Part shown: positions 2,691 to 21,548 of the stretch, piece after piece | Layout of the letters: each line of letters opens with the position of its first letter | How positions within the stretch are numbered: the stretch's first letter is position 1 | IMG/VR virus record: IMGVR_UViG_3300030117_005444 | Location: 961 to 22,508 of that record | Strand: one strand, 5' to 3' | Source: a virus | DNA length: 21,548 nucleotides | Notes under the pieces: generated by a model | The model's input: only the letters and a program-made list of their open reading frames with translations | The model's database searches: none | What the model was told of the DNA's origin: nothing | Program-made: the position numbers and the translations under genes

Positions 2691-4193
2691 ATGGCTAAAC
2701 AATCAGTTGGTATTGGATCTTCTGCAAATGATGGCACTGGTGATACTTTGCGTGATGGTGCCATCAAGGTAAATGCCAACTTTGATGAGCTTTACACAGC
2801 ATTAGGTAACGATACTACAATCCAAGTGGACATCAGTGGATCTCCTTCTGATGGTCAAGTATTAAAATGGACTTCTAGTCCTTCGGGAGCATTTAGAGCA
2901 GGGAACTATGATATTCTAAGTTCTAATCTTGATACAAACGGTCATCAAATCGTTTGTGATGGTACTGATAATATTACACTCAAGCAAACTGGCACAGGAG
3001 ATATAAAACTTTGGGCTGGTGGAAGTGGATCACCTTTAACATATGTTGATGGTGATGATGGATATTTTAAATGGTATGCACCTTATGCAAATGCAGCAGG
3101 ATTACCAATTGCATCAGATCATCAGGGTATGTTTGCTTATGCAAATTCTGAAGGTAAAGGATATTATTGCAACACTTCTGCATGGGTACCTCTTATTGAT
3201 GAGACCAGTAGTATTTCATTATTAAGTGATGTTGATACAACTGTAAATGGTGGTCCTTCTGATGGTCAGGTTCTTAAGTGGGTAGCATCAACATCTAAAT
3301 GGTCACCTGCTAATGATGAGCAAGGGACAGGTGGTAGTGGTGGAACTACACAAAACTTATTTGAGACATTTACTGGTGATACTGGTACAACCACTGCGTC
3401 TGCTCCTAACGACACTTTTAATATTGTTGGTGGTACAAACATTGCTACTGCATTGGTTGGAGACACTTTAACAATCAATATGACAGGAGCTCTTGGAGAT
3501 CCTGATCAGAATCTCTTCTCGACATTCGGTGCAGATAATGGACAGACTTCAGCTACTGTTACTACAGATACACTTAACTTCTTGGGTGGAACTGGTATTA
3601 GCACTAACCTTAACGCAGGTGCTATTACAATTACAAATGACTCACCGAACATTGCCCAGAACGTAATCCAGACTGTATCAGGTAATACTGGATCATATAC
3701 TGCAAATGCTACTGACAGCACTGTAACTATTACTGGTGGTACAGGTTGTACGACTTCTGTGAGTGGTAGCACATTAACTGTTGATGTAGATGAACCTCTC
3801 CCAGCTGGTACAGTATCAAATACAGGTCATTCATTCTATTTTGATCAGAACTATGCTGTAGTAACACAAGAATCACCTGTATTATGGTACAACGTTACGT
3901 CTAATGGTGATTCTGCATATAGATTCTCAGGTCCAGGTGTCGCTGATACTGCTGATGATCCTACATTCTATGTGTATAGAGGATTTACTTATGTGTTTTA
4001 TAATAGCACTGGTAGTGCTCACCCATTTGAGATCAGAGTTTCTAATGGTGGTTCTGCAGTAACTAATGGTATTAGTGGAGATATTAATGGAACATTGATT
4101 TATACAATACCAATGAATGTAGCGGCTGGTACGACACATGTTTATCAGTGTACATTACATCCAGGTATGGTTGGAAATTTAGTGGTGGTATAA
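2691..4193 (+). CDS. Fibre-like virion protein with C-terminal cupredoxin-like domain
   Basis: This is a 500-residue protein. The N terminus (residues 4-38: SVGIGSSANDGTGDTLRDG...NANFDELY) is a pattern I recognise from phage structural and fibre proteins. DGQVLKW occurs twice (around residues 60 and 190). Residues 220-367 hold three ~46-52-residue repeats of the form QN-L/V-I/F-x-T-x-x-G. The last ~120 residues form a cupredoxin-like domain with a complete type-1 copper ligand set: His444 (AHPFEIR), Cys487, His490 and Met493 in YQCTLHPGMVG, followed by the terminal strand NLVVV. The C-x2-H-x2-M loop has the same length as in amicyanin (CTPHPFM), and MVG followed by VV is as in plastocyanin. 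Copper binding is inferred, not shown. An ATAAATA box precedes the gene; there is no strong Shine-Dalgarno. Confidence 0.85.
   Translation: MAKQSVGIGSSANDGTGDTLRDGAIKVNANFDELYTALGNDTTIQVDISGSPSDGQVLKWTSSPSGAFRAGNYDILSSNLDTNGHQIVCDGTDNITLKQTGTGDIKLWAGGSGSPLTYVDGDDGYFKWYAPYANAAGLPIASDHQGMFAYANSEGKGYYCNTSAWVPLIDETSSISLLSDVDTTVNGGPSDGQVLKWVASTSKWSPANDEQGTGGSGGTTQNLFETFTGDTGTTTASAPNDTFNIVGGTNIATALVGDTLTINMTGALGDPDQNLFSTFGADNGQTSATVTTDTLNFLGGTGISTNLNAGAITITNDSPNIAQNVIQTVSGNTGSYTANATDSTVTITGGTGCTTSVSGSTLTVDVDEPLPAGTVSNTGHSFYFDQNYAVVTQESPVLWYNVTSNGDSAYRFSGPGVADTADDPTFYVYRGFTYVFYNSTGSAHPFEIRVSNGGSAVTNGISGDINGTLIYTIPMNVAAGTTHVYQCTLHPGMVGNLVVV
3348..3797 (+). repeat. Three imperfect ~50-residue repeats in the 2691 gene
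   Basis: Copies start at 3348 (TQNLFETFTGDTG), 3504 (DQNLFSTFGADNG) and 3654 (AQNVIQTVSGNTG). Each continues through a DT/ST-x-x-I/F-x-GGT segment to a strand such as DTLTINM. This pattern suggests a stacked beta shaft. Confidence 0.7.
3822..4190 (+). other. Cupredoxin-like domain with full His-Cys-His-Met set
   Basis: The domain covers residues ~378-500. A beta strand (PTFYVYRGFTYVFYNST) precedes His444. Cys487, His490 and Met493 follow in a single loop immediately before the C-terminal strand. This is the ligand order of type-1 (blue) copper proteins, with the shortest natural C-x2-H-x2-M loop, as in amicyanin. Confidence 0.72.
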
Positions 4194-4194
4194 C

Positions 4195-6042
4195 ATGGCA
4201 AGAACAGTTCCAGGATCAGGTGCAGCAATAGAACCAGTCTTTAATAGCGTATTCGGTGTTAGAGACGTAATCGTGACCAATCCTGGTTCTGGTTATAGTC
4301 AGTCTGATCCTCCAAGATTAGTAATTGGTAATTGTGGTACTCCCATTAGGGATGCTGTTTTGCGTGCAAATATTGGTGTCAATGGAGATCTTCTTTCTGT
4401 TGATGTGGTAGATCCAGGTGAAGGATATGATCCATTAAGATTAGAAGTAACCAGTCCTGATTCAGGGGTTGTAGAAGCAGATGCTAATCTTGTACTGAAA
4501 ACTGATGGTACTGGTGGAATACAAACAGTCCAAGTCACCCAGCCTGGTGATGGATATTTTACTGCTGAAGCAGAGATAAAAGGTGGTGGAGGATCAGGTG
4601 CTGAACTTGTTCCTATTACGGGTGGTGTAACTGGTCTTGCTATCGAAGGTAAAGGTAGGAACTACGATCTCAACGATATTACTCTTGTTATATCAGGTGG
4701 TGGTGGAGACGGAGCAACGGGTGTTGCTGAGGTTAATCAGTTCGGCTCTGTCACTGGAATTACCATTAGTAACCCAGGTGAGTTTTTTGAGACTCCTCCG
4801 ATTATACAGCTAATTGGTGGTGGTGGTAGCGGTGCTACTGCTGAGGCAAAGATTAATCTTGGTGCTATAACTGAGATCAATATCCTCAATCCAGGTGGTA
4901 GTTATGTTGCTCCTCCTCAGGTTATCTTCACTAGAGATACTAACTTAATAAGAACACAAAGAAATAGAACATCATTAGAGAGTGAATTATATAATGTAAC
5001 TGCATTACTAAGAAATGCTGCTGCAGCAGATACTGTCTTATATGTTCAGACTACTGATGCATATCCTGGTTCTGGTAAATTCCAGATAGGAACAGAGATC
5101 GTTAGATATACTGGTAAAACACCTATTAGTTTTACTGGATGCACTAGAGGTCTTAATTTTAGATATGACCAACGTATTGTATTAGATGCCTTGGCAAATG
5201 ATAATGATGGACTATCAGGATATAACTTTACTGTTTCAGATAGAATTAGAAGAGTAGAGGAAGATAAAACTAATAAGGTTGCTGTTGTATATGACTGGAA
5301 TAAGGTAACTAGAGAGTTATTCTTAATCTTCGAAGTTGATGAATTGGCATTTATTGATGGTGGTCGTTCTAACGAAAAGACTGCTGTTATCCAGTTTATT
5401 GGAGGTGTTGCTAGTTCTACAGAAACTGGAGAAGCACCACACGTCTTGGTTGAGCAACAGAATAGTAACATCGTACTATTCACTTCACCACTAGGATTAT
5501 TAGAGAATTTCACCTTCGAAGATGATGATGAATTGGATGGAGCAGGTGATGGAATCCCTGACCTGGTAAATACTGATACAGACTATGAGAATGAGATCAG
5601 CCTAGATGGTGGTATTGCATCATCACTCTATGGTATTGAGGAGACCGTTGGTGGTCAAAACACAACCTTATTCCAACAAGGTGATGAGTTATATGATTCC
5701 AGTTTAGTTCCTCTAGTATCAACTGTATCTGTTGCAGGTGCACTTGGTGATGGATTAGCACATAGTGCAACTTCTAAAGTAGTTGCTAAATCTTGGAATA
5801 ATGTAAATTACATCGTTGGAGAGATAGTAACTGGTGGAACCACTGGGGTTACTGCTAAAGTTGTCTCATTTAATAATGCTTATGCTACGGGATATGTAGA
5901 AATAACGTTAGAAGATATAACAAATAACGGTAATACATATCAATTTACAACCAGTGATACCTTAACAGGTGGTAGCTCTGGTGCAACATCAACTTTCTGG
6001 AAAGAGGAGTTCACAAACCTCGTCAGAAACGAACCTGAATAA
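4195..6042 (+). CDS. Glycine-rich tail/baseplate structural protein with GxGY repeats
   Basis: This 615-residue protein starts 1 nt after the previous stop, so translation is probably coupled. Residues ~20-245 contain at least five repeats of the type strand-x-V-x-x-PGxGYxxPP followed by a GGGGSGA turn (NPGSGYSQSDPP, DPGEGYDPL, QPGDGYFTA, NPGEFFETPP, NPGGSYVAPP), suggesting a repetitive beta structure. Residues ~265-330 hold a segment with YPGSGKFQIGTEIVRYTG and CTRGLNFRY, of a kind seen in phage tail proteins. Residues ~542-600 contain two GE/SD...TGG-x-x-GA repeats (GEIVTGGTTGVTAKV, TLTGGSSGATSTF) shared with the 2,455-residue protein. The gene lies directly upstream of gp8, so baseplate location is likely but inferred. 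I cannot assign a T4 counterpart. Confidence 0.82.
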   Translation: MARTVPGSGAAIEPVFNSVFGVRDVIVTNPGSGYSQSDPPRLVIGNCGTPIRDAVLRANIGVNGDLLSVDVVDPGEGYDPLRLEVTSPDSGVVEADANLVLKTDGTGGIQTVQVTQPGDGYFTAEAEIKGGGGSGAELVPITGGVTGLAIEGKGRNYDLNDITLVISGGGGDGATGVAEVNQFGSVTGITISNPGEFFETPPIIQLIGGGGSGATAEAKINLGAITEINILNPGGSYVAPPQVIFTRDTNLIRTQRNRTSLESELYNVTALLRNAAAADTVLYVQTTDAYPGSGKFQIGTEIVRYTGKTPISFTGCTRGLNFRYDQRIVLDALANDNDGLSGYNFTVSDRIRRVEEDKTNKVAVVYDWNKVTRELFLIFEVDELAFIDGGRSNEKTAVIQFIGGVASSTETGEAPHVLVEQQNSNIVLFTSPLGLLENFTFEDDDELDGAGDGIPDLVNTDTDYENEISLDGGIASSLYGIEETVGGQNTTLFQQGDELYDSSLVPLVSTVSVAGALGDGLAHSATSKVVAKSWNNVNYIVGEIVTGGTTGVTAKVVSFNNAYATGYVEITLEDITNNGNTYQFTTSDTLTGGSSGATSTFWKEEFTNLVRNEPE

Positions 6043-6047
6043 GTCAC

Positions 6048-6054
6048 ATAAATA
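6048..6054 (+). promoter_or_regulatory. Late-promoter-like box ATAAATA upstream of gp8
   Basis: CACATAAATAAAAGG lies just after the previous stop (6040-6042) and 22 nt before the gp8 start. It matches the T4-type late promoter core, and a transcript starting ~6 nt downstream would still include most of the AAGGAAGG ribosome binding region. Confidence 0.6.
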
Positions 6055-6055
6055 A

Positions 6056-6063
6056 AAGGAAGG
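6056..6063 (+). promoter_or_regulatory. Ribosome binding site for gp8
   Basis: AAGGAAGG is a purine-rich Shine-Dalgarno-like stretch 13 nt before the ATG at 6077, slightly longer than ideal spacing. It is one of only two clear ones in the window. Confidence 0.5.
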
Positions 6064-6076
6064 TTAAACTGCTAAG

Positions 6077-7612
6077 ATGGCACTACTCACCGATCAATTT
6101 AGAATTTTCACTGCGGAGAGATTTATTAAAGCTCTAGAGGGTGCCGACCCATCGCAGTCAGACCTTGTAGCGGGAACGTCGAGGGACAGGTTGTATGTTT
6201 TCATTGGAAGACCACAAGAGTGGGACAATGAGAATGCTCCTCCTACCCCTGTCGATTCTTTCCAAGAGTTTTCAGACACATTCGCTGACATGATCTCTCT
6301 TAAGAGAGTTCTTGCTAACGATACAATCCAGGTTGTAAGGCGAATTGACTGGACACCACCAGAACAAACTACTGGTGGATTAGGTTATGTCTATGACATG
6401 TACCGTCATGATTATAGTTCTACTAAAACTGCGTCTTCTGGTGCAACTAAGTTGTATGATGCTGATTTTTATGTAGTTAACTCACAATATCAAACTTACA
6501 AGTGTATCTACAATGGCACGTCTCCTTCAGACCCCAATGGCAAACCATCCACGGTTGAGCCTACTGGTACTTCCACAAGTATTATCACTACCAGCGACGG
6601 CTATCGTTGGAAGTATCTTTATACTATACCTGTTGGTCAGGTCTTAAAATTCTTCTCTAACGATTACATGCCTGTTCTTAGCGATGTCGCTGTTACAGGT
6701 GATGCTGTTGGTGGAGAGATTGATACTGTTGTTATCCAAGCATCAGGTACTGGATACAACAACGGAACGTATGAAAACGTTCCTATTAAAGGTGATGGAG
6801 TTGGTGGAAGAGTATCACTGGTTGTTGATGGTGGACGTATAGTTAACGCTACTGTGACATCTGGTGGATCTGGATACAACTTCGGTAAGATCGTTATTGA
6901 TGAAGTCAATGGTATTGGTGCAGGAACTGGTACTGGTGCTGCTATTGACGTTATCATTCCTCCTGAGACAGGACATGGTGCTGAACCAGACTCTGAGTTA
7001 GGTGGATATCGTGTAATGATCAACACCAAATTTACATACGCTGAGGGATCAGGTGACTTCCCAACTGATAACGACTATCGTCGTATTGGTTTGGTTATTA
7101 ATCCTAAGCAATATGGTACTACAGAACTTACTTCTGCTATTACTTTATCTGCAACTCAAGCGGTTATATTCTCACCAACCTTTACAGGTCAGTTCCAAAC
7201 TGATGAGATAATAACACAGTCCCGAACTGTCGGTGGTCAACAGGTGACTGCTAGAGGTCGGGTTATTTCATGGAATGATACCACTAAAGTCCTGAAGTTC
7301 TATCAAAATAGAATTGACGGTGTGTTCCCAGAAATTACTGGTAACCTAACTGACTTTGAGGGTGGTAACCCTGTGGTAGGTGCTACATCAGGTACCTCTG
7401 CTGACCCAGACATCAACTTCCCAATTGTTTCTGGTTCATCCACTCGTATTATTAACAACACAGAATATGATTTGGGTATGTCATTCACCAATGGATACGC
7501 CAAACCTGAGATTGAGCCAAACTCTGGTGAAATCATTTACATAGATAATAGAGGTGCGATTTCTCGTGCAGGTGACCAAATCGAAGATATCAAGATCGTA
7601 GTAGAATTCTAA
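6077..7612 (+). CDS. 8: Baseplate wedge subunit gp8 (T4-like), enlarged
   Basis: In T4, gp8 is a structural subunit of the baseplate wedge. Matches recalled from T4 gp8 run in order along this protein: FIGRPQEWDNEN with PTPVDS (residues 43-62) against the T4 FGRSEPWSSNEN/PYPTDS; RRIDW against PRRDW; GYRWKYLYTIP against GYVWEYLFEIP; RRIGLVINP (~335-343) against RQISIITNP; and SGEIIYIDNR with the IEDIKIVVEF end (483-511) against SGEMIYMENR/TEEINILFTF. T4 gp8 is 334 residues; this one is 511. The extra length sits in two places: residues ~209-300, which carry GxGY repeats like those of the neighbouring gene (GTGYNNGTY, GSGYNFGKI), and ~345-480, a beta-rich stretch with GATSGT. An ATAAATA box and AAGGAAGG precede the start. 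Confidence 0.9.
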   Translation: MALLTDQFRIFTAERFIKALEGADPSQSDLVAGTSRDRLYVFIGRPQEWDNENAPPTPVDSFQEFSDTFADMISLKRVLANDTIQVVRRIDWTPPEQTTGGLGYVYDMYRHDYSSTKTASSGATKLYDADFYVVNSQYQTYKCIYNGTSPSDPNGKPSTVEPTGTSTSIITTSDGYRWKYLYTIPVGQVLKFFSNDYMPVLSDVAVTGDAVGGEIDTVVIQASGTGYNNGTYENVPIKGDGVGGRVSLVVDGGRIVNATVTSGGSGYNFGKIVIDEVNGIGAGTGTGAAIDVIIPPETGHGAEPDSELGGYRVMINTKFTYAEGSGDFPTDNDYRRIGLVINPKQYGTTELTSAITLSATQAVIFSPTFTGQFQTDEIITQSRTVGGQQVTARGRVISWNDTTKVLKFYQNRIDGVFPEITGNLTDFEGGNPVVGATSGTSADPDINFPIVSGSSTRIINNTEYDLGMSFTNGYAKPEIEPNSGEIIYIDNRGAISRAGDQIEDIKIVVEF

Positions 7613-7616
7613 ATCA

Positions 7617-10600
7617 ATGCCACAGAATACCAATCTGAATATCGCTCCGTATTTCGACGATTTCAGCAAAGACAATAATTTTTATAGAGTACTCTTTAGA
7701 CCAGGATTCCCAATCCAGGCAAGAGAACTTACTACTATGCAATCGATTCTGCAGAATCAGATCGAGAACATGGGTACGCACCTCTTTAAAGAAGGTGCTA
7801 TGGTCATTCCTGGACAAATTGGATATGACCTATCTGTACATAACATCCTTATTCAGCAAGCGTTTTTGGGAGTTGACGTTGAGACTTATAGGGAACAGTT
7901 ACATGGAAAGATTGTAGAAGGTCTTACTACTGGCATTAAAGCTAAGATCCTATTCTCTATCCCTGCTACTGAATCAACTCGTGGTTATATAAGTTTCTAT
8001 CTTAAGTACGTTGAGTCTGGTGATACTACATCTGATGTATCTACAAAGGTATTCCAGAACAACGAACAGTTAATATGTGAAAATGAACTAACATTCGGTA
8101 ACACTTTGATCGAAGTTGGATCACCATTCGCTCAACTATTACCAGTTGACGCAGCACAAATAGGTTCTACAGCGTATATCAATGAAGGAGTTTATTTCAT
8201 CCGTGGGCATTTCGTTGACATTTCTTCTGCTTACATTATCCTGGATCAGTATACCAATAATCCTTCCTACAGAGTCGGATTCGAAGTATCAGAGTCGATC
8301 ATCACTCCAGAAGACGACCCAGCCCTAACAGACAATGCGATTGGTTCATCGAACTATTCTGCACCAGGTTCTCATAGATTCAGAATCAAATGTACATTGG
8401 TTAAGAAACCAATAACTGATGATACTGATAAGAACTTTATAGAACTCTTACGTCTTAAGAATTCTATTGTAGAAAACTTCGTTGATCGTACTGAGTATAA
8501 CGAGATTGAGAAATCTATTGCTCGTCGTACTTATGAAACGCATGGAGATTATGTTGTTGATTCATTTGATGTACGTCCTAGAGAACATCTAAATGATTTC
8601 TTTAATAATGGTGTTTACAATGCAGGACAAAATTCTGCAGATGGTAACGTTGCTTCTAGCAACTACATGGCATTAGAGGTTGGTAAGGGTAAAGCATATG
8701 TAAAGGGTTTTAGAACAGAACTACTTGCTGCTAACTATGTCGATTCACCAAAACCTCGTACTTTTGTTGGACGTAATAACCAGATTATTCCTATTGACTT
8801 ATCACAGTCATGTGAGGTATATGACATCTGGGGTTGGCCAGAGATCTCTGGAGAGGGTGTAACTAACTGTTATCAGGTATTAGAACTAAGAGACAATTGG
8901 TCTGGTACAGGAGCATCTAACAGTGTTCAGGGTGCACTAATTGGTAAAGCAAGAACTCTACAATTAGAAAGAGATAGTAATAAGTACAATCTGTTTATGT
9001 TTGACATACAGATGTTTACTGCTCTTAACTTTGCAAACAGTCAGACAGTTAACTCTGGTGAAGTATTAAAAGGTCGTCAGTCAGGTGCTACTGCATTTGT
9101 TTACAGTGGTTCAGGTGCTTCTTGTTTAGTACACCAAGTTTCAGGACAGTTCCAAATCGGTGAAGTTATCACTAGAGATGGTAGAGTATTAGATACATTG
9201 GATGCTGTATATGCTTATGAGCAATCTGATGTTCGTCAAGTTGTAGGTAAAGATGGTGCTACTGTTATCTTTACTGCTTCATTAGCACTTAACCTCAGAG
9301 AGGCTATTCCAGGTACAACTATTAATATCGATGCAACAGGTGGTAACGATAGAATAGAAGGTTTCGGTACAAGATTCGAAAGTGATATTCGTGCAGGTGA
9401 AGTTCTAACTGCAACTAATACAGATTTTAAAGCACAGAACTCTATTCGAGTTAAGAGAATAGATCAAACTGCTATTGGATTTACAGATCAAAACAGGAAT
9501 GATCCTGGTACTGCTGTTGTGTTTGATTTCACTAATCAACATGCTGCATTAGATACAGGTTTAACTAAGGGTACTGTTCCTGATGCTGAATACCCTGCAG
9601 GACAGGTTGTTAGATTACGTCCTAGATTTGCAACTAAGACTGTACAGGATGGAGAATTGGTTATTGACATGCCTAAACATGCCATTAAGTCAATCTCTGA
9701 TGAATCATTTGTTGTAATAAAAACCTTCGCTAACAAACAGTTATCATCTGGTGACGTTACATTCACACTACCAGAGAACGAACAGTTTACTACTCTTGAT
9801 AGTGAGAACTATATTCTTACAGTTACACAAGGTGCTAACAGTCATACAGGATATGGATGGAACGTAGGTACTAACATTGATATTGAGAATGAATCTACTA
9901 AGAACTCACCTACTATTGGTGTAACCTTTGGTGCTAATAGACAGTCACTACAGGTTACTGGTATGAACCAAGGTAGTGGTGGTGCTTCTAATATTACTGA
10001 GGTAACTCTAACTGCTGCAGTTTCTGTTAACACAGTATCTAAGAAGATTAAGACTGCTGCTAAGATGCGAGTGATGAAAGTTGTTCGTACTAGAAACAAT
10101 ACTGATGTACAGAACTACGGTTTAACATACGGTAACTTATATGGTACTCGTATTGAGGATGAAGAGATTTCATTTGCACTGAATGACGTATACAAACTAC
10201 ATGCTGTATATGAATCAGAAGATGATGGTGACGCTCAAGTACCTTATGTGATTCTAACGGAGAATGTATTCTTCGATCCAGGATCTATTGTTGTTGGTAG
10301 AACAAGTGGTGCTCGTGCAAGAGTTGTATCATTTAACTCTAACAATCTTAGATTATATCTTGTACCTACAAGTTCAGAATTCTTTAATTCAGGAGAGACC
10401 ATTGATGGCTTTGATGACGATCTTAATGCTTTGGTTGGTGTCGTTGATGATGCTGATGGATCACTCGAAAGAGGATCAAAAAACATCACAGCGAACTTCG
10501 ACTTAGACGCTAACTTAAATTCCTACTACTATAGTGTTTCCAAACTTCTTAGAAAGGGTGGAACTGCTGAACCTCGTAGAAAATTAGCAGTTGTATTTGA

Positions 10601-15521: not shown

Positions 15522-18500
15522 ATGGCAAATAGAATACAATTAAGACGTGACGGAGCACAGCAGTGGGCTAACGTCAACCCAATACTTGCTCAGGGTGAGT
15601 TAGGTATCGAACTTGATACTTCTCGACTGAAGATAGGAGATGGTGTAACTCCATGGAACTCACTTAAGTACGAACGTCCACTAGAAACAGAAAGTAATAC
15701 TGCAAATACTCTTGTAAAGCGTGATGCTGACGGTAACTTTGAGGCAGGTGCCATTACTGCGTCAATTATCGGTAACGCTGCTACTGCTACGAGACTTGCT
15801 AACGCTAGATCATTCACCCTAACAGGTGACATGTCAGGATCTGCATCCTTTGACGGATCTGCAAATATCAACATCACTGCTGAACTAAACTATCAACCAG
15901 GTCTCCCACACTACGACCCTAATAATCTATCTGCCACTGCACAATACACTCGTCTGACTATTGACTCTCGTGGTCGTGTTACTACTGGTGACAATCCCAC
16001 GACTCTTGCTGCTTATGGTATTGCTGATGCTCAACCTGCTGATGCAGAGCTACAAGCATTAGCAGACATGACAGGTTTTGGTCTCATCTCCCGTACTGGA
16101 GCTGGTACCTTAGCAAACAGACAGATCGCTGTATCTGCAGGTAGACTATTAGTATCTAATGGTACTGGAGTTAATGGTAACCCATTATTAGATCTTGCTG
16201 ATACTCCTGTTGTTGTTGGTTCTTACAACCCTGTAGGTAACCTAGACACACCATTAGTATCTGTAACAACTGGTGATGAGACTGTCAACACAACTAACTT
16301 TACTGTTGATAGATATGGTCGTTTAACTGCTGCAAGCACATCCGCTATTGCCACTGCAACACAAGGTAGTGAGATAGCAGCATTTAACAATGGAACAAAC
16401 TATGTACGAAATGACAAGGTTAAAAATACGGCTGATAAGTTGTATCAGGCTATCCTTCCTATTAACTCTGGGGGCGGTGAGCCTACACACACGGACACCA
16501 GTGATACAGGATCTTGGAGATATCTCGGATCTGCTCTAGCACCTCAGAAAGGTTTAGCATCATTTAACCAAGAAGACTTTGATGTAACACAATGGGATGC
16601 AGGTAGTAACTATGAGGGTGGTTTTGTAACCATTGCTCAAGCAGGTGTTGATAATGATCAATTACAGAACTCTCGTATAGGTTTTGCTGATGGTAATACA
16701 TTAGAGAACTTTGATCTTGATCAAGAATTAACTGCTACTACAGGATACAGAGGATTTAATTACCTTAACTATACGAAGGTAAACGATACAACTGGAAATT
16801 TATTAGTAGGTGCTAACAATACTGGTAATGGTTCTAGTGGTAATCAACAAGCAGTGCAGAACGTTGTTGTCACACTCGGTACAGATACAGTAGGTGGACA
16901 ATCAACAGGTGTATTTTACTTAGATGGTGTAGAAAGTCCTACAAACTTCCCACTTAAGAAAGGTATTAAGTATATCTTTAATCAAGATGATTCTACCAAT
17001 GAAACATATGGTGGTGCAAATCATCCTTTAATGGTTAGTTCAGGTGCTGACGGTGATCACAATGGTCATGGTCATTACATGATGGGTATCACCTATAAGT
17101 TAGATGGTTCTGTTGTTGATATGGCAGGGTATGTTAGCGGATTTAATGCTGCTACTACTCGTAGAATGGAATGGTTGGTGCAAGCAGAAGCACCTGCTAG
17201 TCTTTACTATTGGTGTCATCATCACACAGGTCAAGGTGATAGTTTTGCTATTACTGAAGGCGGTGCAGGTGAACTTGACATTAACGTAAGATCATACTTC
17301 AGTCATCCTGATATCACTTTAGATGGTGCTATATCTCAGACACTTGATAAGACTGGTGATGGAGATTTATATTTCCAACTTACTCAAAACACTGCATCAA
17401 ATAGAAACTTAAACATTCTTTCTACTAACGCAGGAGCTGGTAATGCTACCATTCTCATACAATCTGAGAATGATGTTACAATCAATGCTAGTAACGTTTC
17501 TAATAGAGTAAACGTAGAAGGTTTCCAATTCCAAGATGATACTCTAAGTAGCACTGCTGCTACTATGATCTTAGATCCAGGTGATGACGATGCTGCAACT
17601 GGTAAAGTTCAGATTCGTGGAGATCTACAGGTAGATGGTACAACGACCACGGTAAATTCTACTGTTGTTACCATTGATGATCCTATATTCACATTGGGTG
17701 GTGATACTGCTCCAGGTTCAGATGATAACAAAGACCGTGGTATAGAATTTAGATATTATGACACACAAGCAAGGCTCGGGTTCTTCGGGTGGGACGAAGA
17801 TTATGCAGACTCTAACATATGGTCTGGCACTGGCGGGTATAGGCTCCTCTACAACGCCACTAACACCTCTGAAGTTTTCTCTGGTACTGACGCTCCTCTC
17901 ATTGTTGGTAACCTCAGACTCACAACAAACACAGGATCAACCTCAACCACGACGGGTACGTTGGTGGTCACAGGGGGATTAGGTCTTTCTGAGAACGCAC
18001 ATATTGGTGGAACTGTTACTATTGCAGGACAGTCAGAAGTTAATAATAATGTAATCTTTAAGGCAGACAATAAGTCATTCAGCATACAGAACGCATCTGC
18101 TGTAAATAAGTTCTCTGTTGATTATGACAATGGTAATACAATAATAGAAGGTACATTAGATGTTCAGTTAGAAACTGAAATCACTGATAACCTTATTATA
18201 AAAGCAGATAATAAGAAATTTGATATCCAAACTGCTGCAGGTGTCAGTGTATTTGATGTAGATACTGACAACGGAAATACCCATACAGATGGTACTCTTG
18301 ATGTAGATGGTGGAACAACTCTAAACAATACATTGGATGTTGACGGTGCTACTACCCTCAATGACATTCTTGATGTTGATTTAGATGCTACATTCCATGA
18401 TGACATCACTCTTGATACTACTGGGAAGTACTTTAAGATCACTAATGGATCTAATGATAAGTTCACAGTACTATCAACTAATGGTGATACAGATATAAGA

Positions 18501-21500
18501 GGAACCTTAGATGTAGGTTCTGCAGTCATATTCGAAGCTAACTTTAATGCGAACGGAAATAACACTACTATCGGTAATGCAAATACTGATGTGTTTACTG
18601 TTAATTCAGTCACAACATTCACCGATAATATCACAGTCAATGGTACAGTTGATTTCGACACTACACTTAATGTAGATGGTCAAGCAGACTTTAATAGCAC
18701 TGTAGTTATAGATGGACAAACTACAATCTATGATTCAGTAATTATTCAGTCTGATAACGAAGTACTTAATATTAATAACGCAGCAGCCCAGACCCAATTC
18801 TCTATCGATTCTGACAATGGTAACACTGTCATAGGTAGAGCAGGTCTAGGTACTGATGCAGTAGGTCTCCTTACAGTTCACGGTGACACTCTACTTAACC
18901 GTGACTTGACAGTCGATGGAAACACCACTATAGGTGATGCTAACACAGATACACTAACTGTCAACTCTGAGTCAACATTTAATGCAGATGTAACAATCGC
19001 AGGTACTAATAACCTCCAAGTTACTGGTAACGCAATCGTTGATGGAAACCTCACAGTTCATGGAACCACAACTACAGTTAATTCTACAGTAGTTACTTTA
19101 GATGATCCTATCATTACATTGGGTGGTGACACTGCTCCTGGTTCTGATGATGGTAAGGATCGTGGTGTAGAGTTCAGATACTATAGTGGTTCTGCTAAGA
19201 TAGGTTGGTTTGGTTGGGATAATGATGTAAGTAGATTTGCATTATATGATGATGCAACAAACTCTTCTGAAGTATTTTCAGGAACAAGATCTGGTATTGA
19301 TGCAGGTAGCCTAAAACTATTTGATACAACTAATGCTACAAACTCATCTTCAGGTGCTTTAATCGTTGGTGGTGGTGCAGGTATAGGTTTAGACTTACAT
19401 GTTGGTGATGATTTAACAGTTGTTGATGACGCTTCTATTGGTGGTAACTTAGATGTCACAGGAACATTTGATGTAACTGATGACTTAGCTGTTAACAATA
19501 CTAAATTTACTGTTGATGCAGGAACTGGTAACACAATCATTCAGGGAACAGTTCAGGTAGATGGTAATGCTACTATCGGTAATGCATCAGGAGATCAGCA
19601 TACTGTTACTGGTACAGTAACCTTTAACCAAGCAATAACTTCTACAGATATCACTGCTGATAACATTCAGATCGGTGTATCTGGTGCAACAGAAATTGAT
19701 ACAACCTCTGGTAACTTAGTTCTTGATTCTGCAGGTGGTACTGTCAATGTAACTGATGATCTAGATGTTGATCTTAACCTTAATGTTGATGGAAATGCTA
19801 AGGTAGATGGAACATTAACAGTTGATGGTAACACAACTATCGGTAACGCATCTGGAGATTCACACTCTGTTACTGGTACAGTTCAGTTTAACCAAGCAAT
19901 CACATCTACAGACATCACTGCTGATGATATTAAGATCGGTGTTGATGCTGCTAATGAAATCAGTACTACTTCTGGAAATCTAATATTAGATTCTGATGGT
20001 GGTAAGGTTCATATCACAGATAATGCTGAGATAGATGGAACTCTACAGGTAGATGGCAATGCTACTATCGGTGACAACTCTGGTGATCAACATGAATTCA
20101 CTGGTACTGTAACATTTAATCAGGCAATCACTTCTACAGATATTACTGCTGACAACATCAGAATTGGTGTTGCTGCTTCATCTGAGATTGATACAACCTC
20201 TGGTTCTCTTACCTTAGATTCTAATACTGGTGAGACTATCATTGATGATAACTTAACCGTCAACGGAACATTGGATGTTGATGCGTTAACAACGATTACT
20301 GATGCTCTAACAGTTAAGGCAGACAATAAATTATTCTCTGTACAGACTGGATCTGCTGCTACAATCTTCAGTGTTGATACTGATAACGGTAATACAGATA
20401 TACAGGGTACTCTTAATGTAGAGGGTGCGACAACTATTGACGATACATTTAATGTCACTCAGGCAACTGATCTAGATGGCACTCTAAATGTTGATGGTGT
20501 TGCTACTTTCCAAAACAATGTAGTATTAAACGCTGATAATAAAGAATTTGCAATACAGTTAGATGATGGTACTGACAAGTTCACAGTCCAATCAGCAACT
20601 GGTAATACAGATATACAAGGAACTCTTGATGTTAACGGGGCAACAAATGTCACCAACACATTAGGAGTAACAGGACTTACATCTCTTACAAATAATACTA
20701 ACCCAACATCTCTATCTGGCAACGCTGCTTTGATGGTTACTCAGGGTGGTTTGACTGTTGATGAAGATGTATATGTTGGTTCTGATCTATTCATTGGTCC
20801 TAACGCAGGTACTACGATCACCTTAAACGGTGCTACTGGTAATGGTGCTTTTGGTGGAACATTAAATGTTACTGGACAGACAACATTAACAACGATCTCT
20901 GCTACAAGTTTGACAACTTCTGCAGGTGTCACAATGGATGGTTCTTTAATCATCAACACCGACAAATTTACAGTTGCAGGTGCTACTGGTAACACTGCTG
21001 TTGACGGTACATTGGATGTCAACGGTGCTACAAATATCACTGACAATCTTACTGTAACAGGTGCAGTTGATTTTGATACTACTCTGAATGTAGATGGTAA
21101 CTCAACCTTCAGTGGAACTATCACACAGAACAGTACATCACTCTTTAAAGATAATATTGTATTAAGAGGATCTACTAAGACATTAAAACTTCAGAATGGA
21201 TCTGGCACAGATAAGATTACTCTTAACTCTACTTCTGGTGCTGCAACATTCGCAGGATTAACAACAACAAATACTCTTGACGTAACAAGTAACACTACTA
21301 TCGGTGGCACACTCGGTGTAACGGGACAGATCACTGGTAACGTAACTGGTGCGTTGACAGGTAATGCAGACACTGCAACTCTAGTTAATATTACTGAGAC
21401 TGGATCTTCTAACCTTACTTACTATCCTACTTTCGTTTCTGCAACTACTGGAAACACTGAAATCAGAACTGACTCAAGTAACCTTACATACAACCCAAGT

Positions 21501-21548
21501 ACAAACACCTTAACAGTTAATAACTTTACCTCAACAACTGACTTTACA
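15522..21548 (+). CDS. Giant tail fibre protein, 3' end outside window
   Basis: The frame is open for 2,009 codons from ATG 15522 to the right edge. The N terminus (RIQLRRDG...NPILAQGELGIELDT, then KIGDGVTPWNSL) is the common phage fibre attachment pattern. GNAATATRLANAR with GDMSGSASFDGSANI is also typical of fibres. Residues ~284-345 (NNGTNYVRNDKV, LYQAI, SWRYLG) loosely recall carbohydrate-binding modules. Residues ~448-590 form a second cupredoxin-like domain with His501 and CHHHTGQG at 565-572. The rest is repetitive beta sequence: ADNKxFxIQ...NGNTxIxGTLDV repeats, a duplicated GGDTAPGSDD module (704-800 and 1179-1266), and three tandem ~76-88-residue repeats (1345-1584). It probably contacts the host surface. 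The ATG at 15506 opens only a short dead frame; no strong Shine-Dalgarno is visible. Confidence 0.9.
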   Translation, partial: MANRIQLRRDGAQQWANVNPILAQGELGIELDTSRLKIGDGVTPWNSLKYERPLETESNTANTLVKRDADGNFEAGAITASIIGNAATATRLANARSFTLTGDMSGSASFDGSANINITAELNYQPGLPHYDPNNLSATAQYTRLTIDSRGRVTTGDNPTTLAAYGIADAQPADAELQALADMTGFGLISRTGAGTLANRQIAVSAGRLLVSNGTGVNGNPLLDLADTPVVVGSYNPVGNLDTPLVSVTTGDETVNTTNFTVDRYGRLTAASTSAIATATQGSEIAAFNNGTNYVRNDKVKNTADKLYQAILPINSGGGEPTHTDTSDTGSWRYLGSALAPQKGLASFNQEDFDVTQWDAGSNYEGGFVTIAQAGVDNDQLQNSRIGFADGNTLENFDLDQELTATTGYRGFNYLNYTKVNDTTGNLLVGANNTGNGSSGNQQAVQNVVVTLGTDTVGGQSTGVFYLDGVESPTNFPLKKGIKYIFNQDDSTNETYGGANHPLMVSSGADGDHNGHGHYMMGITYKLDGSVVDMAGYVSGFNAATTRRMEWLVQAEAPASLYYWCHHHTGQGDSFAITEGGAGELDINVRSYFSHPDITLDGAISQTLDKTGDGDLYFQLTQNTASNRNLNILSTNAGAGNATILIQSENDVTINASNVSNRVNVEGFQFQDDTLSSTAATMILDPGDDDAATGKVQIRGDLQVDGTTTTVNSTVVTIDDPIFTLGGDTAPGSDDNKDRGIEFRYYDTQARLGFFGWDEDYADSNIWSGTGGYRLLYNATNTSEVFSGTDAPLIVGNLRLTTNTGSTSTTTGTLVVTGGLGLSENAHIGGTVTIAGQSEVNNNVIFKADNKSFSIQNASAVNKFSVDYDNGNTIIEGTLDVQLETEITDNLIIKADNKKFDIQTAAGVSVFDVDTDNGNTHTDGTLDVDGGTTLNNTLDVDGATTLNDILDVDLDATFHDDITLDTTGKYFKITNGSNDKFTVLSTNGDTDIRGTLDVGSAVIFEANFNANGNNTTIGNANTDVFTVNSVTTFTDNITVNGTVDFDTTLNVDGQADFNSTVVIDGQTTIYDSVIIQSDNEVLNINNAAAQTQFSIDSDNGNTVIGRAGLGTDAVGLLTVHGDTLLNRDLTVDGNTTIGDANTDTLTVNSESTFNADVTIAGTNNLQVTGNAIVDGNLTVHGTTTTVNSTVVTLDDPIITLGGDTAPGSDDGKDRGVEFRYYSGSAKIGWFGWDNDVSRFALYDDATNSSEVFSGTRSGIDAGSLKLFDTTNATNSSSGALIVGGGAGIGLDLHVGDDLTVVDDASIGGNLDVTGTFDVTDDLAVNNTKFTVDAGTGNTIIQGTVQVDGNATIGNASGDQHTVTGTVTFNQAITSTDITADNIQIGVSGATEIDTTSGNLVLDSAGGTVNVTDDLDVDLNLNVDGNAKVDGTLTVDGNTTIGNASGDSHSVTGTVQFNQAITSTDITADDIKIGVDAANEISTTSGNLILDSDGGKVHITDNAEIDGTLQVDGNATIGDNSGDQHEFTGTVTFNQAITSTDITADNIRIGVAASSEIDTTSGSLTLDSNTGETIIDDNLTVNGTLDVDALTTITDALTVKADNKLFSVQTGSAATIFSVDTDNGNTDIQGTLNVEGATTIDDTFNVTQATDLDGTLNVDGVATFQNNVVLNADNKEFAIQLDDGTDKFTVQSATGNTDIQGTLDVNGATNVTNTLGVTGLTSLTNNTNPTSLSGNAALMVTQGGLTVDEDVYVGSDLFIGPNAGTTITLNGATGNGAFGGTLNVTGQTTLTTISATSLTTSAGVTMDGSLIINTDKFTVAGATGNTAVDGTLDVNGATNITDNLTVTGAVDFDTTLNVDGNSTFSGTITQNSTSLFKDNIVLRGSTKTLKLQNGSGTDKITLNSTSGAATFAGLTTTNTLDVTSNTTIGGTLGVTGQITGNVTGALTGNADTATLVNITETGSSNLTYYPTFVSATTGNTEIRTDSSNLTYNPSTNTLTVNNFTSTTDFT
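16863..17290 (+). other. Cupredoxin-like domain in the tail fibre, Gln at the axial position
   Basis: Residues ~448-590 parallel the domain at 3822-4190: a Y/F-x-L-D-G strand, KKGIKYIFN before NHPLMVSS (His501), then YYWCHHHTGQGDSF. Cys565, His568 and Gln571 align with Cys487, His490 and Met493. An extra His cluster, DHNGHGHY (His513, 516, 518), lies between the two halves. Metal binding is inferred. Confidence 0.55.
17631..17921 (+). repeat. Fibre module copy 1 (GGDTAPGSDD module)
   Basis: Residues 704-800 contain TTTVNSTVVT, DDPI, LGGDTAPGSDD and DRG-I-EFRYY, then FFGWD and NTSEVFSGT. The module recurs at 19056-19319. The second half of this copy is unusually G+C-rich: 32 of 60 in 17821-17880. 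Confidence 0.85.
19056..19319 (+). repeat. Fibre module copy 2 (GGDTAPGSDD module)
   Basis: Residues 1179-1266 repeat copy 1 closely in the first half (TTTVNSTVVT, DDPI, LGGDTAPGSDD, DRG-V-EFRYY) and keep WFGWD and NSSEVFSGT. The middle is shorter by several residues and A+T-rich (20 of 60 G+C in 19201-19260). Confidence 0.85.
19554..20273 (+). repeat. Three tandem 76-88-residue repeats in the fibre
   Basis: Copies start at 19554, 19818 and 20046 (periods 264 and 228 nt). Each reads VDGN-A/T-TIG...SGD-x-H, then FNQAITSTDITAD, I-x-IGV, and I-x-TTSG-x-L-x-LDS. Copy 1 carries an extra ~12 residues (DDLDVDLNLNVD) at its end. Confidence 0.88.

Follow-up and report, generated by a model that had tools for sequence, protein, structure and literature searches.

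The window analysed here is a stretch of 21,548 nucleotides corresponding to bases 961–22508 of the 22,508-base viral record IMGVR_UViG_3300030117_005444. Its gene content is that of a T4-like cyanophage structural module, and the part of interest is laid out as follows.

1067–2665: YHYH-domain virion protein (PF14240, E 6e-37)
2691–4193, + strand: gp9/gp10-like baseplate wedge/tail-fibre connector, 500 aa (PF07880, phrog_677 and PDB matches)
2697–2876, + strand: N-terminal anchor domain of T4 gp9/gp10 type, aa 3–62 (PF07880 T4_gp9_10_N; PDB matches)
3351–3788, + strand: three similar units of ~50 aa, starting at aa 221, 273 and 323 (QNLFETF, QNLFSTF and QNVIQTV; read from the translation)
3873–4190, + strand: C-terminal cupredoxin domain as predicted, aa 395–500 (AlphaFold2 model, Foldseek, amicyanin profile match)

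Further products of the module are a phrog_22827 protein with a partial match to phrog_708 (baseplate wedge family), a wedge protein of gp8-like type, a protein of 2455 aa, a virion protein of 87 aa and a very long one (ORF 15522–21548) that begins with an Mtd_N-type domain. The gp8-like gene lies two genes downstream of ORF 2691–4193. The YHYH-domain protein, which adjoins the copper-site protein, has a His-rich stretch (HPEVTGQYHYH) and an Ig-like C-terminus; it is possible that it is another metal-binding virion protein.

The N-terminal domain of ORF 2691–4193 matches PF07880 with 40.5 bits against a cut-off of 25 (E 4e-10), and its PDB matches are T4 gp10 and gp9. The whole protein falls into phrog_677, annotated 'baseplate wedge tail fiber protein connector' (E 5e-148). 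The above-threshold PF07880 match and the baseplate gene neighbourhood establish membership of the gp9/gp10-like connectors, and we identify ORF 2691–4193 as a gp9/gp10-like baseplate-wedge/tail-fibre connector of a marine T4-like cyanophage. The original prediction, made without database searches, had called it only a phage virion protein, and that description is refined here. The protein has the N-terminal anchor domain and the baseplate-module synteny in common with T4 gp9 and gp10, but no cupredoxin-domain match was found anywhere in the T4 genome. The three ~50-aa units probably form a trimeric shaft joining the anchor to the C-terminal domain, although this shaft role is inferred.

The nearest annotated relative is found in P-RSM6 (84% over the last 134 residues). 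These 134 residues match 322 phage records, nearly all from cyanophages and mostly annotated as gp9 or gp10. An orthologue in S-SZBM1, SSZBM1_206, is 67% identical to ORF 2691–4193 over the last 110 residues and was detected by LC-MS in CsCl-purified virions, with 9 peptides and 24.9% coverage (PMC9146016). The protein is therefore on the particle, at least in S-SZBM1, and the placement of the domain on a virion protein is shown.

We obtained an AlphaFold2 model of the C-terminal domain from an alignment of 82 relatives, with a mean pLDDT of 97.1 and a pTM of 0.88; a model computed without an alignment was poor (pLDDT 58.7) and was discarded. The domain is all strand with the exception of one short helical turn of three residues. 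A Foldseek search against the PDB gave 62 matches at E<=1e-3, and the 50 examined are all cupredoxins or proteins built from cupredoxin domains. These matches include nitrite reductase, rusticyanin, amicyanin, plastocyanin, pseudoazurin, multicopper oxidases and factor VIII, with E values from 3e-5 to 7.5e-4. TM-scores against solved cupredoxins are moderate (0.42–0.59, rmsd about 4–10 Å), and the domain thus represents a distant branch of the cupredoxins. The predicted model and the Foldseek matches place it in the Greek-key beta-sandwich fold of this family, and we conclude that residues 395–500 are a cupredoxin, the fold being shown by prediction. This had been claimed in the original prediction and held; the start given there, position 3822, held only in part, as it includes about 17 linker residues ahead of the domain proper (3873–4190).

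Single-sequence searches of Pfam and the PDB with the domain returned nothing useful. A family profile has amicyanin (PDB 1aac) as its top PDB match, with E values of 1.7e-6 to 3.6e-6 and the C-x2-H-x2-M loop in register, and the NCBIfam amicyanin model TIGR02657 is matched by most members of the first alignment. The equivalog cut-off of TIGR02657 is not met (16.5 vs 110.2 bits). Among Pfam families, PF00127 (Copper-bind) draws matches from the largest number of members, always weakly: 32/82 relatives match at E<=0.1, the best with 5.6e-4. Its curated cut-off is not met, and the window domain sequence itself has no Pfam match to PF00127.

The proposed copper site consists of four residues, accompanied by an invariant tyrosine.

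4020–4022, + strand: His444, proposed copper ligand 1 (invariant, 223/223; CAT 129, CAC 94)
4143–4145, + strand: Tyr485, invariant, two residues ahead of Cys487 (column conservation)
4149–4151, + strand: Cys487, proposed copper ligand 2 (invariant, 223/223; TGT 127, TGC 96)
4158–4160, + strand: His490, proposed copper ligand 3 (invariant, 223/223; CAT 146, CAC 77)
4167–4169, + strand: Met493, proposed axial ligand (invariant, 223/223)

The four ligand positions, with Met493 followed by VGNLVVV, lie exactly where the original prediction had put them, and a stop codon follows the last valine. Conservation was assessed in 223 distinct domain sequences from IMG/VR scans and phage records, each of which covers all ligand positions. 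The sequence pool behind the 223 (gappy rows excluded) forms 114 clusters at 90% identity, 16 at 60% and 9 at 50%. Only five columns out of 106 are invariant, namely His444, Tyr485, Cys487, His490 and Met493, and the hypergeometric chance that all four proposed ligands fall within these five is about 1e-6. The proline after His444 is nearly invariant (222/223). The ligand order of a type-1 copper site, His followed by Cys-His-Met, is thus conserved in the family (223/223). Both synonymous codons are common for the histidines and the cysteine, indicating that the invariance is due to selection rather than recent descent. Three of the four later collection scans were seeded by peptides that exclude the ligands, and the family model still detects a ligand-free copy in contig L297 (E 4.8e-19); the invariance is therefore not a search artefact. 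Both the invariance of these residues and selection on the site are shown. No homologue loses Cys487 or His490 (0/223), so that the loss of these residues, named in the original prediction as a refuting condition, is not seen.

Several known proteins resemble the domain in part. Amicyanin has the same short loop, C-x2-H-x2-M, with CTPHPFM in place of the CTLHPGM of the window. The claim of an amicyanin-like loop therefore held, by sequence-profile register only; no ligand distances were taken from the model. The surroundings of the first ligand are different, H-P-F in the window domain as opposed to M-P-H-N in amicyanin. His444 sits in A-H-P-F-E-I in the window and in G-H-P-F-E-I in the family, unlike the P-H-N of amicyanin and plastocyanin and similar to G-H85-S-F-D-I of rusticyanin, which we verified against the 1rcy and 1a3z sequences. 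The amicyanin-like site initially proposed is refined accordingly: around His444 the domain resembles rusticyanin rather than amicyanin. Amicyanin is a free periplasmic electron carrier, whereas the window domain is the terminal part of a virion protein. In the family, loop positions adjacent to the ligand histidine vary freely, whereas amicyanin has P and F between its ligands; the family has no conserved partner-docking surface there. The domain thus has an amicyanin-like loop in different surroundings and is not an amicyanin.

Rusticyanin (PDB 1rcy) is the second-best fold match and shares Y-x-C and the terminal M-x-G-x-[IL]-V-V. It differs in its longer ligand loop (C138-x4-H143-x4-M148) and in being a free, acid-stable electron carrier, and when its profile was compared with that of the family, the alignment was confined to the final 21 columns. 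Multicopper oxidases and copper nitrite reductases also match the domain in Foldseek and profile searches. His-Pro-Phe occurs at the first ligand in type-1 sites of multicopper oxidases, like the H-P-F of the family. In contrast to these enzymes, the domain has no residues of a trinuclear or type-2 centre, is single and has no enzymatic partner domain. A recent origin from the plastocyanin gene petE of phages is unlikely, since the profile favours amicyanin over plastocyanin; no tree was computed.

Related domains occur elsewhere in cyanophage virion proteins, with and without the site. The protein after gp9 has two of them in many cyanophages; H-C-H-M is kept in 49/50 distinct copies of the first and in 0/53 copies of the second. 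The window itself encodes a further such domain.

16902–17255, + strand: second, divergent cupredoxin-like domain, aa 461–578 of ORF 15522–21548 (iterated profile search)

This domain has H501, C565 and H568, with Gln571 in the axial place (C565-x2-H568-x2-Q571). The axial glutamine recalls stellacyanin and is common to several IMG/VR relatives (e.g., L029, L139 and L170). The gp9 profile matches the P-RSM6 counterpart of ORF 15522–21548 weakly (E 6.7e-4).

Contig L297, a phage contig binned as Proteobacteria, carries two adjacent paralogous fibre-like genes (4671–8435), the first with an intact site spaced C-x2-H-x3-M and the second without any ligand. Ligand-free domains in the second wedge position and in L297 show that virion use of the fold is possible without the site. 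Where the proposed copper site is retained in related virion domains, it is retained whole. In L296 (5289–9449) and similar gp7-like proteins, a cupredoxin domain with the site appears to be accompanied by a second one without it. A YHYH-like sequence is seen by eye nearby in these wedge proteins; the window has YHYH in a gene of its own.

The domain is found on a gp9/10-type N-terminus in 104 distinct sequences and on other N-termini in 101, with the four ligands in all. Anchors were told apart by a simple pattern in the sequence; on visual inspection, a few of the 101 resemble variants of the gp9/10 start. A second anchor type, MADKSFGVKxLNIVGASGxPTIES..., precedes the same C-terminal domain in L013, L016 and most of L185–L264, which possibly reflects module exchange among virion adaptor proteins. 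The domain is also found in tail fibres and subtilases. In a subtilase-family virion gene of S-CAM1 (L023 736–2991, KU686194.1), it is circularly permuted: residues 201–218 correspond to model positions 85–102 and residues 231–308 to positions 6–79. The C-x2-H-x2-M segment consequently lies ahead of the HPF half, with H, C, H and M all present.

The domain is present in at least 322 cyanophage records and in hundreds of ocean viral contigs. A gp9-type profile finds matches in P-SSM2, P-SSM4, P-HM2, syn9, S-SSM7, S-H34, Bellamy, S-CAM1, P-RSM6 and S-SZBM1, and P-HM2 has four domains of the gp9 cupredoxin family. The same profile has no match in S-PM2, T4, the Pelagibacter myophage HTVC008M or the podoviruses P-SSP7 and Syn5. 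Since S-PM2, HTVC008M and T4 lack a copy, a T4-like baseplate can do without the domain. The sole cellular relative found (L298) is a true chromosomal gene in a Bacteroidetes MAG, next to glycyl-tRNA synthetase-like and ribonucleotide reductase genes (names read from the sequences). Its product (3801–5249) has an N-terminus resembling a secretion signal, collagen-like repeats and, at its C-terminus, a member of this domain family with H and C-x2-H-x2-M. Two other MAG matches were rejected as cellular genes, as they lie on phage contigs (L296 from a cyanophage, L297 from another phage).

We consider it likely (probability about 0.7) that the domain is a copper-binding cupredoxin on the virion. 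Copper as the metal is inferred, as no metal has been measured; the suggestion in the original prediction that the domain may bind copper is to this extent supported as probable. By analogy with T4 gp9 and gp10, the connector would surround the baseplate in the form of trimers. Its T4 counterpart gp9 is the part to which the long tail fibre is attached, and the cupredoxin domain would sit at the corresponding end of the protein. The site would most likely take up one copper ion per domain after assembly, a time of loading that is itself inferred. The metal would lock the loop that joins the final two strands into a single shape, and the fixed loop may provide a stable docking or adhesion knob for the tail fibre or the host surface. 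A copper-stabilised attachment or adaptor knob is the most likely function that we can infer, yet the docking role taken alone is slightly more likely to be wrong than right. None of the roles originally suggested (electron transfer, metal scavenging, host-surface binding or structural use) is established, and docking is favoured by inference only. Against the copper reading stand the moderate TM-scores, the lack of a Pfam match for the window domain, the variable residues between the ligands and the absence of the domain from S-PM2, HTVC008M and T4. A further point against it is that phage proteins fold in the copper-poor cytoplasm of cyanobacteria, so that loading is a real question.

The strongest alternative is that the domain is a purely structural beta-sandwich knob, in which packing or hydrogen bonding accounts for the retention of the four residues, with no metal bound in nature. 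Related domains in neighbouring virion proteins do work without the site (0/53, and the second protein of L297), and apo-cupredoxins fold without metal. However, the core varies at its other positions and it is exactly the ligand set that does not, the residues are lost where the fold is used without the site, as relaxed selection predicts, and the permuted S-CAM1 copy retains all four. We therefore regard this explanation as unlikely.

Alternatively, the site could be a redox device whose copper swaps electrons with a partner on the host surface or in the periplasm, triggering attachment, sheath contraction or light- or redox-gated infection. Type-1 sites are made for the fast transfer of single electrons, the hosts are photosynthetic, and some cyanomyoviruses adsorb better in light, among them P-HM2 (PMC7112961) with its four family domains. 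However, S-PM2, the classic light-dependent phage, has no copy, and light-dependent adsorption therefore cannot depend on the domain in general; we consider a link between the two unsupported. In addition, the family shows free variation at the loop positions beside the ligand histidine, where amicyanin and plastocyanin have their docking patch. Electron transfer remains chemically possible but has no independent support, and a redox device is improbable on present evidence.

A third possibility is that the site binds another metal, such as iron or zinc, as a metal lure or a structural metal. HxH sites at the tip of T4 gp37 bind iron, and such sites have been proposed for marine phages (alterophage R22Y; PMC11705849), likewise placing metal on a phage tail. 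These fibres have a different metal and a different fold, with sites between the subunits of a trimeric needle, whereas H and C-x2-H-x2-M on a cupredoxin fold is the arrangement of type-1 copper and not that of an HxH trimer site; we thus think another metal unlikely. The boldest reading, in which the dominant T4-like phages that infect marine picocyanobacteria would be metalloviruses whose baseplate and fibre proteins bear a set of type-1 copper sites, is improbable, as is its joint claim that the redox state or presence of copper regulates attachment or infection.

The known roles of blue copper proteins are those of electron carriers and of domains in enzymes. In the open-access literature searched, we came across no description of a cupredoxin as part of a virion, subscription papers and preprints being outside the scope of that search. 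The identification of the domain corrects many annotations that are 'hypothetical' or generic. If the domain of the gp9/gp10-like connectors does bind copper, the particles of a large share of ocean viruses would carry this metal, with implications for virion assembly, attachment and the cycling of trace metals.
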